This document shows positions 7,221-10,361 of a DNA stretch of 64,000 bases, piece after piece. The stretch comes from Conexibacter woesei Iso977N (GTDB lineage Bacteria > Actinomycetota > Thermoleophilia > Solirubrobacterales > Solirubrobacteraceae): NCBI RefSeq assembly GCF_000424625.1, contig NZ_AUKG01000001.1, positions 930,001-994,000 of the forward strand, written 5' to 3'. Every line of letters begins with the position of its first letter. The stretch's first letter is position 1. The position numbers and the translations under genes were made by a program. The notes under the pieces were generated by a model. The model did no database searches. It saw nothing but the letters and a program-made list of their open reading frames with translations, and was not told where the DNA came from.

Positions 7221-10200
7221 GTGCAAGGGCAGGAACAGCGAACGTCGCAATGGACGTCGCGGCCGTGGGTCGCGCGCGCGTTGCGCATGCTCGTGTTCGT
7301 GCTGCCGTTCGGCGCCTCGGTCGCGTTCGTCTGGGCGGTCAGCCGGTTCGTCACGGCGCCCGACGGAGGTGCGGCGGCGTTCATCGCGTGGTGGCTGGCG
7401 CTGAGCGCCGGCGGCAGCCTCGTGATGTGGTTGGTCGACCGTGCTGCTCGGCGGCTGTTGCCGCTGGCCGCGCTCCTGCAGCTGTCGCTCGTCTTCCCCG
7501 ACCAGGCGCCGTCGCGCTTCCGCGCCGCCATGGACTCCGGGCGCGTCAACGAGCTCGAAGACCGGCTGGCGCTCGCGCAGCGCGCCGCGAACGCCGAGAC
7601 GCCGGCCGAGTCGGCGCGGCTGCTGCTGACGCTCGTCGCCGCGCTGAGCGACCACGACAGGCTGACCCGCGGCCACTCCGAGCGCGTCCGCGGCTACGCG
7701 GTGATGATCGGGACCGAGCTGGGGCTCTCCGAGCACGAGCTCGACCAGCTCAACTGGGCCGCGCTGCTGCACGACATCGGCAAGTTGGAGGTGTCGGTCG
7801 ACATCCTCAACAAGCCCGGCCGCCCGGACGAGCACGAGTGGCAGCAGCTCAAGCGCCACCCGCTCTACGGCGAGCGTTTCGTCGAGCCGATGCGGCCGTG
7901 GCTCGGCGACTGGGCCGACGCCGTCGGCTACCACCACGAGCGCTGGGACGGCCAGGGCTACCCGCGCGGCATCGAGGGCGACGACATCCCGCTCGCGGGC
8001 CGGATCGTCGCGATCGCCGACGTGTTCGACGTCATCACGAGCGCCCGCTCCTACAAGGAGGCCGGCTCGGCGTCGTCCGGGCGCGAGGAGATCGCGCGCT
8101 GCGCGGGCGTCCAGTTCGACCCCAGGTTGGTCCGCGCGTTCCTCGGCGTCTCGCTGGGCCGGATGCGGATGGTGATGGGGCCGCTGTCGTGGCTCGCGCA
8201 CCTGCCGATCGTCGGGCGGCTCCCGCTGGGCTCGATGGCCGGGACCGTCTGGGGCGCCGCGGGCGTCGTCGTCGCCACGACCGCCAGCGGCTTCGCCGGG
8301 ACCAGCGGCGCCGCGCACGACAACGAGGCGTTCGCGGCGGCCCCGCGGCCGGCGGCGGTGGTGCAACCCCATCGGGTCGCTCCGGCGCGGGTGCCGGCTT
8401 TGGCGCAGCGGCGGAGGCACCGCGTCGTCGCGAGGGCGGCGAGGGTCGCCGTCCCGGACGAGCTGCCGCCGCTGACCGACGCGCCGGTCGCGACGCCGGC
8501 CGCCGCGCCGGTGGTCCCCGCGCCCGTCGCCGCGCCGGAGGCGCCTGCGCCCGCGGAGCCCGCCGTGCCGGAGATGCCCGCCGCCACGCCGGTTGAGCAG
8601 CCGGCCGCGCTGCCGCCGCTCACCCCGGAGCCCGTCGTCGCGACGCCGCCCGCGGCGCCCGCGCCTGCGCCCGTCGCGCCGATCCCGACGCCCGCGCCGC
8701 CCGCCGAGCTGCCCGCGCCCGCGCCGCCGGTCCCCAACCACGCGCCGACGTTCACGGCCGGCGCCGACCGCACCGTCGCCGAGGACTCCGGCCCCAGCGC
8801 GACCCCCGGCTGGGCGACCGCCATCGACGCCGGCCCGTTCGAGGGCGGCCAGGCCATCGACTTCGTCGTCGACAACGACAACAACGCGCTCTTCGCCACC
8901 CAGCCCGCGATCACCCCCGCGGGCACGCTGACCTTCACGCCCGCGCCCGACGAGCACGGCACCGCGCGCGTCACGGTCCGCGCCCATGACGACGGCGGCG
9001 GCGACGACACCAGCGCGCCCCAGGCGTTCACCATCACCATCACTTCCGTGAACGACACGCCGTCCTTCGGCGCGGGCGCCGCGCAGGCCGTCCTGGAGGA
9101 CGCCGGCGCGCAGGCGATCCCCGGCTGGGCGACCGCGATCTCGCCCGGTCCCGCGAACGAGTCGTCGCAGGCGATCGACTTCCAGACCAGCAACGACGAC
9201 AACGCGCTGTTCAGCGCCCAGCCCGACGTCACGCCCGCTGGCACCCTCACCTACACGCCCGCGCCGGACGCCAACGGCACCGCGCGCGTCACGGTCCGCG
9301 CGCACGACGACGGCGGCGGCGACGACACGAGCGCGCCCCAGACGTTCACCATCACCATCACATCGGTCAACGACGCGCCGACGTTCACCGCGGGCGCCGA
9401 CCGGACCGTCCGCGAGGACGATCCCGCGCAGACCGTCGGCGGCTGGGCGACGCACATCACGCCCGGCCCGGCCGACGAGTCGTCGCAGGCGATCGCCTTC
9501 ACGACCAGCAACGACAACAACTCGCTGTTCGCCGCTCAGCCCGCGGTCAGCCCGGGCGGCACGCTCACGTTCACGCCCGCGTCCGGCGCGCACGGCGTCG
9601 CGACCGTGACGATCACCGCCCACGACGACGGCGGCACGGCCGACGGCGGCGCCGACACGAGCAGCGCGCAGACGTTCACGATCACCGTCCTCGCGCCCAA
9701 CCACGCGCCCTCGTTCTCCAAGGGCAGCGACCCGACTGTCCTGGAGGACGCCGGCCCACAGACGCTCTCCGGCTGGGCGAGCGGCATCTCGGCGGGCCCG
9801 TCCTACGAGAGCGCGCAGGTCGTCTCGTTCACCATCAACAACCCGCTCGCCGCGCTGTTCGCCGCCGCGCCCGCGCTCTCCGGCAGCGGCACGCTCAGGT
9901 TCACGCCCGCGGCCAACCAGAACGGCGCCGCGACGTTCACGGTCACCGCCCACGACGATGGCGGCACTGCCGACGGCGGCGTCGACACGAGCGCGCCCCA
10001 GACCTTCACGGTCACGGTCACGCCGGTCAACGACGCACCGTCGTTCGCCAAGGGCGGCGACCAGTCGGCGGTCCTCAACGGCGGAACGCAGACCATCCCC
10101 GGCTGGGCCACCGCGATCTCGCCCGGCCCGGCCGACGAGAGCGGGCAGAACGTCACGTTCACCACCACCAACAACAACCCAGGACTGTTCCAGGTCCAAC

Positions 10201-10361
10201 CCCACGTCGATCCCGACGGCAGCCTCGTCTACCAGCCCGGCTTCTCCCTGCTCGGCTCCGCGACCGTGACCGTCACCGCCGTCGACGACGGCGGCACCGC
10301 CAACGGCGGCATCAACACCAGCCCACCGCAGACCTTCACGATCACCGTCTTCCTGGTCTAG
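7221..10361 (+). CDS. HD-GYP domain protein fused to five extracellular cadherin-like repeats
   Basis: 1046 residues, GTG start. Two hydrophobic segments (about 20-45 and 50-90) precede an HD-GYP phosphodiesterase domain (about 145-290) with GHSERV, LLHDIGK, HPLYGE, HHERWDGQGYP and ADVFD, the metal and c-di-GMP-site pattern of active enzymes. A further hydrophobic stretch lies near 340-365, followed by an Ala/Pro-rich linker (about 375-505). Then come five repeats of about 105-110 residues (506 to the end), each opening NHAP or NDAP, with GWAT, an acidic Asn/Asp motif, GTLTFTP and DDGG before TFTIT. By topology the catalytic domain is cytoplasmic and the repeats extracellular, so it may couple surface contact or calcium to c-di-GMP breakdown. 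Its stop overlaps the convergent hupE-like stop. Confidence 0.85.
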   Translation: MQGQEQRTSQWTSRPWVARALRMLVFVLPFGASVAFVWAVSRFVTAPDGGAAAFIAWWLALSAGGSLVMWLVDRAARRLLPLAALLQLSLVFPDQAPSRFRAAMDSGRVNELEDRLALAQRAANAETPAESARLLLTLVAALSDHDRLTRGHSERVRGYAVMIGTELGLSEHELDQLNWAALLHDIGKLEVSVDILNKPGRPDEHEWQQLKRHPLYGERFVEPMRPWLGDWADAVGYHHERWDGQGYPRGIEGDDIPLAGRIVAIADVFDVITSARSYKEAGSASSGREEIARCAGVQFDPRLVRAFLGVSLGRMRMVMGPLSWLAHLPIVGRLPLGSMAGTVWGAAGVVVATTASGFAGTSGAAHDNEAFAAAPRPAAVVQPHRVAPARVPALAQRRRHRVVARAARVAVPDELPPLTDAPVATPAAAPVVPAPVAAPEAPAPAEPAVPEMPAATPVEQPAALPPLTPEPVVATPPAAPAPAPVAPIPTPAPPAELPAPAPPVPNHAPTFTAGADRTVAEDSGPSATPGWATAIDAGPFEGGQAIDFVVDNDNNALFATQPAITPAGTLTFTPAPDEHGTARVTVRAHDDGGGDDTSAPQAFTITITSVNDTPSFGAGAAQAVLEDAGAQAIPGWATAISPGPANESSQAIDFQTSNDDNALFSAQPDVTPAGTLTYTPAPDANGTARVTVRAHDDGGGDDTSAPQTFTITITSVNDAPTFTAGADRTVREDDPAQTVGGWATHITPGPADESSQAIAFTTSNDNNSLFAAQPAVSPGGTLTFTPASGAHGVATVTITAHDDGGTADGGADTSSAQTFTITVLAPNHAPSFSKGSDPTVLEDAGPQTLSGWASGISAGPSYESAQVVSFTINNPLAALFAAAPALSGSGTLRFTPAANQNGAATFTVTAHDDGGTADGGVDTSAPQTFTVTVTPVNDAPSFAKGGDQSAVLNGGTQTIPGWATAISPGPADESGQNVTFTTTNNNPGLFQVQPHVDPDGSLVYQPGFSLLGSATVTVTAVDDGGTANGGINTSPPQTFTITVFLV

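Follow-up and report, generated by a model that had tools for sequence, protein, structure and literature searches.

A receptor-like HD-GYP protein of Conexibacter woesei, its family with exchangeable ectodomains, and a flagellar/WhiG-type promoter-like site

Our analysis of a 64,000-nucleotide stretch of the Conexibacter woesei Iso977N genome (the window) describes a gene in which ordinary parts, an HD-GYP domain and cadherin-like repeats, are joined in an unusual receptor-like arrangement, and whose product belongs, as judged from sequence, to a small and apparently undescribed protein family. The open frame at 7221-10361 on the plus strand has a GTG start and a translation of 1046 residues, and its Pfam matches mark it as the coding sequence of a receptor-type HD-GYP protein. 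The analysis establishes the architecture of this protein, its family, the retention of its active-site residues, the enrichment of a promoter-like site before family genes and the presence of WhiG and RsiG in the host; the association of the family with a flagellar/WhiG-type promoter (TCAA-N16-GCCGATA) is the new element. We rate at about even the chance that the protein belongs to the WhiG/FliA regulon and acts as a receptor-type c-di-GMP phosphodiesterase, with an ectodomain that would monitor the envelope or surface and a possible positive feedback through RsiG-WhiG.

The HD-GYP phosphodiesterase domain spans residues 139-303 (7635..8129, plus strand) and matches Pfam HD_5 with an E-value of 2e-32 (112.6 bits against a cut-off of 27.2). 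The HD and HHExxDGxGYP motifs are both present in the translation, as HD at 184-185 and HHERWDGQGYP at 238-248. An alignment with PmGH (PDB 4mcw), whose metal ligands and residue numbering we take from PMC4159591, shows that seven of the eight ligands are kept (H152, H184, D185, H213, H238, H239 and D267), in agreement with the original prediction of intact catalytic motifs. The sole metal-ligand difference is Leu148, at the position of PmGH E185; replacement of E185 by alanine reduces the activity of PmGH and does not abolish it, and HD-GYP enzymes without this carboxylate, which usually have Tyr or Phe at the position, are likely to form a binuclear subgroup (PMC4159591). Residues D146, K188 and D270 match PmGH residues whose mutation abolishes or strongly reduces activity (PMC4159591). 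The best PDB sequence relative of the domain is V-cGAP3 of V. cholerae (5z7c, E 2e-44), with 4mcw and 4r8z among the other relatives, and a fold search with the model ranks c-di-GMP enzymes first, the best match being PA4781 (4r8z), with PmGH (4mcw) also found. The protein probably breaks down c-di-GMP inside the cell. The host genome holds 53 GGDEF matches above the cut-off and about 14 HD-GYP genes besides that of the window, so this enzyme may matter little globally.

Hydropathy peaks of the window protein lie at residues 23-41, 54-72 and 334-352, and an AlphaFold2 model of the N-terminal module (mean pLDDT 60, with much of the HD-GYP core at 70-86) has helices at all three sites, although confidence is low for the third. 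The first transmembrane helix (TM1; residues 23-41, 7287..7343, plus strand; hydropathy 2.09) is conserved in the family. The second (TM2; residues 54-72, 7380..7436, plus strand; hydropathy 1.74) is followed by a family signature, PLAALLQLSLVFPDQAPSR, at residues 81-99 (7461..7517, plus strand), in which P81, L82, A83, L85, L88, F92, P93, P97 and R99 are invariant in alignment A1. The third (TM3; residues 334-358, 8220..8294, plus strand; hydropathy 1.47) corresponds to a model helix at 336-358 with pLDDT <50. Among 28 family members the TM1-TM2 loop is almost without lysine and arginine (0-2), against 5-9 in the segment after TM2; across the family the lysine and arginine content falls from a mean of 10% before TM3 to 6% beyond it, and the mean net charge over the 40 residues after TM3 is -3. 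This charge pattern supports a predicted topology with the N-terminus and HD-GYP domain in the cytoplasm and the repeats outside, as the original prediction had it. A caveat comes from the window protein only, where a basic run at about 385-408, 'RVAPARVPALAQRRRHRVVARAAR', lies downstream of TM3 and runs against the positive-inside rule. Also confirmed is the proposed separation of HD-GYP domain and repeats by a membrane helix and an Ala/Pro linker: the hydrophobic helix at 334-352 is followed by an Ala/Pro-rich, putatively extracytoplasmic stretch (residues 360-505, 8298..8735, plus strand), recognized from sequence and family-wide composition, with the basic run near its start.

Residues 506-1046 consist of five repeats of 105-110 residues each, all encoded on the plus strand: repeat 1 at 506-610 (8736..9050), repeat 2 at 611-716 (9051..9368), repeat 3 at 717-826 (9369..9698), repeat 4 at 827-936 (9699..10028) and repeat 5 at 937-1046 (10029..10358), which forms the C-terminal end. 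Pfam assigns five stretches to Big_9 (E 9e-17, 62.2 bits against a cut-off of 23.6) and also finds Cadherin_5 (E 4e-11, 43.0 bits against 26.5); the NCBIfam model tand_rpt_95 scores 75.8 bits, under its whole-protein cut-off of 90. A sequence search found no solved (PDB) relatives of the repeats. A model of repeats 2-3 (pLDDT 86) matches pairs of cadherin EC domains and the staphylococcal adhesin SraP in Foldseek, at E ~1e-8, the TM-scores over the two domains being modest (0.33-0.53), and together model and search place these repeats in the cadherin/Ig-like beta-sandwich fold. Pairwise identity between repeats is 48-72% in protein and 62-77% in DNA, and the longest exact stretch of DNA in common is 28 nt, so nothing points to a recent tandem duplication. 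The number and length of the repeats are as originally predicted, but they are not near-identical, and the strain-to-strain variation in copy number that had been deduced from their DNA similarity is unsupported. Four family members from different genera have 5, 5, 3 and 1 repeats of exactly this type, so copy number does differ between species. The linker residues E16-D17, D86-D87 and N-D are shared by repeats 1-4; the terminal repeat alone lacks the ED pair. This loss is as expected if the pair helped to bind calcium at the junction with a following domain, and is no more than suggestive of such a role.

The layout of the N-terminal module, TM-TM-'PLAxLLxLxLxFPDxAPSR'-HD-GYP-TM, defines a sparse actinobacterial family. 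A query with the N-terminal 361 residues retrieved five relatives over most of the module, two of them cut by contig ends, from Acidimicrobiia, Egibacteraceae and other Actinomycetota; those with a full-length module are 43-46% identical to the window protein over it. A profile of residues 9-157 (A2), which leaves out most of the HD-GYP domain, splits the family cleanly from other HD-GYP proteins in the phylum scan, with strong matches at E <=1e-14 and the rest at 6e-5 or weaker. Strong matches occur in 21 of 396 genomes of the phylum and 4 of 299 of the class. The module was not found in the same-genus genomes of the class scan (G001, G002 and G006), and all six same-genus genomes, in a protein search, yielded matches at the HD-GYP level only, so that the gene appears to be sparsely distributed through loss or transfer. 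A plasmid origin was considered and rejected, no plasmid match covering 80% of the module. The active-site motif residues are kept in 33 of the 37 readable members and lost in one clade of four (L153, L154, L155 and L214), a single genus-level group in which the membrane module persists. RsiG matches are absent or weak in two genomes with such degenerate members (G361 and G434), and one genome with a motif-less member (G145) also holds two paralogues with intact motifs. A search of the open-licence literature for HD-GYP together with cadherin-like, PASTA, Ig-like or Thermoleophilia found no relevant paper.

The part of the protein that follows TM3 varies across the family, from cadherin-like arrays and PASTA domains to an unnamed domain or Pro/Gly/Thr-rich tails. 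Arrays of the Big_9/cadherin type occur in the window protein, in L172 (two adjacent genes) and in L173, L174 and L175; the two adjoining genes, at L172:4856-10802, both encode cadherin-like ectodomains in one genome (G145). PASTA lies at the protein end in two members (L148 and L150), and Pfam finds none in the window protein. The unnamed terminal domain, present in L172, L173, L174, L055 and L176 and absent from the window protein, has no Pfam match; one of its segments is PDHDxDGxPGL-like (or NYDTDRDS), and L172-L174 also show a 'WNGG' pattern in it. Several of the members have low-complexity tails only, so a folded ectodomain is not required by the family. In the tree the window protein groups with L173 and L174 (support 99/97), both from another family of its class, and the cadherin-like state requires at least two changes on well-supported branches, being found in two separated clades. 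The direct fusion of an HD-GYP domain to an external cadherin-like array was thus rightly recognized by the original prediction and recurs in relatives, but a single fusion is too narrow a view, since across the family sequences the ectodomain appears as an exchangeable module.

Upstream of the gene lies a promoter-like site, TCAAGATCCCGGTCCTTCGGCCCGATCA (7182..7209, plus strand), which reads TCAA-N16-CCCGATCA and ends 11 nt before the GTG, implying a near-leaderless transcript; it has two mismatches to TCAA/GCCGATA. We scored TCAA-N14..17-GCCGATA within 250 bp in 37 upstream regions of the family against 60 runs of dinucleotide shuffles. Allowing up to two mismatches, we find the pattern in 15 of the 37 regions, where shuffles average 1.9 (maximum 6) and the reverse strand gives two; allowing up to one, we find it in eight, where shuffles give 0.13. 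These figures include related members, which do not count as independent, and part of the data is also where the motif was first noticed. The usual spacing is 16, and no such site stands in the 250 bp before 22 of the 37 members, so that about two fifths of the sampled family genes appear to carry a WhiG-type promoter-like site. A relaxed pattern gives 24 matches in 2 x 5.7 Mb of host genome and one in the control. Of these, 12 were fetched, picked mostly for a good -10; six have a gene starting just downstream for flagellin, a flagellar rod protein, a prepilin peptidase, an HDOD protein or, in two cases, a GGDEF protein, and at several others of the 12 no such gene was found downstream. In Rubrobacter, WhiG-type promoters have been defined by TAAA / GCCGATAA with at most two mismatches within 200 bp of the start (PMC8325347), and the window site, TCAA / CCCGATCA, falls outside this definition with three mismatches to the full consensus; the sites before the host flagellin and rod genes read GCCGATCA and are also off the Rubrobacter consensus.

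A WhiG equivalog is encoded in the host at C2:1255933-1256610 (L196), between tyrosine-recombinase-like and elongation-factor-G-like genes, and scores 371.9 bits against the NCBIfam cut-off of 343. A second FliA/WhiG-family sigma factor lies about 2 kb from the flagellar rod gene, which itself carries one of the promoter-like sites. The host also has a single-motif RsiG-like protein of about 86 residues (75 bits against a cut-off of 27; Pfam PF22802), encoded elsewhere than WhiG, at C2:1456296-1456511 (L218), in which the Gln of the motif E(X)3S(X)2R(X)3Q(X)3D is replaced by His. A search by a DNA pattern of this motif gave no true match, the one exact in-frame occurrence falling in a PPDK-like protein. 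RsiG scores above the cut-off in 22 of the 24 genomes that carry the family, and three same-genus genomes where the family was not found have such matches too, so the co-occurrence is not specific. Single-motif RsiG has been reported in Rubrobacteria and Thermoleophilia, RsiG/WhiG is the one sigma/anti-sigma pair reported as a c-di-GMP target, and of the 12 WhiG-type promoters mapped in Rubrobacter 5 stand before genes for diguanylate cyclases or phosphodiesterases and three lie in the pilus cluster (PMC8325347).

These features suggest a model for the window protein, in which we infer catalysis, substrate, ligand, direction of regulation and promoter use. Three helices would cross the membrane, and the five cadherin-like domains would reach through the wall on a flexible Pro-rich stalk. 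When the ectodomain is bound, crowded or under tension, the effect may pass by way of TM3 and the conserved juxtamembrane segments to the HD-GYP domain, and so alter c-di-GMP breakdown. The gene would be read from the flagellar/WhiG-type promoter in a host that has WhiG (and FliA) together with RsiG. In studied species RsiG must be loaded with c-di-GMP to hold WhiG; a low level of c-di-GMP would then free WhiG, giving more enzyme and still lower c-di-GMP, and motility or pili would be favoured. This promoter could also be read by FliA, and the feedback loop through RsiG would then fail. More tentatively, and with the odds leaning against it, the model may extend to the whole family as PknB-like receptor phosphodiesterases, with a conserved TM-HD-GYP-TM chassis, exchangeable envelope-sensing ectodomains (cadherin-like, PASTA and others) and RsiG-WhiG positive feedback that connects the state of the envelope or surface with motility and pili.

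The ectodomain could instead be an adhesin or passive wall-spanning anchor that ties a constitutive phosphodiesterase to the surface or to appendages, with no sensing and with regulation at the level of transcription only. We regard this as a possible but less favoured reading: it would account for the many members with only Pro/Gly/Thr-rich tails of 90-260 residues, for the free turnover of ectodomains beside a conserved N-terminal module, and for the SraP match, cadherin-like arrays being common in bacterial adhesins, yet it leaves aside the recurrence across members of TM3 and the juxtamembrane segment GPLSWLAxLP. It also sits poorly with the two members that carry PASTA in the same position, PASTA domains being the wall-sensing modules of PknB-type kinases.

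Signalling might also run from inside to outside, the HD-GYP domain acting mainly as a c-di-GMP-binding switch that alters the display or clustering of the external array, much as degenerate-EAL receptors such as LapD do. Leu148 leads one to expect a binuclear and possibly slower site, and the sister clade has lost its active site entirely while keeping the membrane module; but every other metal ligand and the equivalents of the catalytic residues D146 and K188 are retained, the motif residues persist in most members, and the best fold match, PA4781, is itself a binuclear HD-GYP protein, which makes this reading improbable. We hold it more doubtful still that the substrate is a different one, such as 3'3'-cGAMP: that V-cGAP3 is the closest PDB sequence relative points this way, but likeness within HD-GYP domains does not fix the substrate, c-di-GMP enzymes come first in the fold search, and the host is rich in GGDEF matches.

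Where the sensor of a c-di-GMP enzyme is known, it mostly lies at the N-terminus. The solved HD-GYP proteins PmGH, PA4781, V-cGAP3 and DvhD have in common with the window protein the HD-GYP fold and motif, the seven kept PmGH metal ligands and the catalytic Asp and Lys, but they have soluble N-terminal sensors (GAF, REC or PAS) or none, whereas the sensor-like part of the window protein is C-terminal and outside the membrane. PknB-type PASTA kinases combine a cytoplasmic enzyme, a transmembrane helix and an extracellular, modular C-terminal ectodomain. The family resembles them in this arrangement and, in two members, in PASTA itself; it differs in its HD-GYP catalytic domain and two extra N-terminal transmembrane helices, and the window protein lacks PASTA. 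Streptomyces HdgA and HdgB are a 6TM-HD-GYP and a 6TM-degenerate HD-GYP protein (PMC6205966). Compared by description only, they are like the family actinobacterial and membrane-bound, with active and degenerate forms side by side, and unlike it in having six transmembrane helices and no listed ectodomain. Repeat-family and fold matches are shared with cadherin-like, Big_9 and tandem-95 proteins (SraP CDHL and CshA-type), which are mostly surface adhesins or secreted, whereas the array of the window protein sits on an intracellular signalling enzyme. The Rubrobacter RsiG-(c-di-GMP)-WhiG regulon resembles the host in its WhiG, single-motif RsiG and WhiG-type promoter before a c-di-GMP turnover gene; here the target differs, being a receptor-like HD-GYP family across several actinobacterial classes, known from sequence. 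If the proposed model holds, a family in which the enzyme lies in the cytoplasm and a C-terminal ectodomain, open to exchange, lies outside would couple the condition of the wall or surface directly to the breakdown of c-di-GMP. The promoter link would put the family within the regulon of the one sigma/anti-sigma pair reported as a c-di-GMP target, a feedback testable in culturable actinobacteria.

On the minus strand a 1566-residue open frame at 7182-11882 spans the entire gene; as a real gene it was rejected, being probably an artefact of high G+C codon use. No RNA element upstream of the gene matches Rfam above the gathering score. A TetR-type gene ends about 70 nt before the GTG start, and the HD-GYP gene may form an operon with it. 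An inverted repeat, ATCCCGGT / ACCGGGAT, at 7187-7216 overlaps the promoter-like site and could be an operator.
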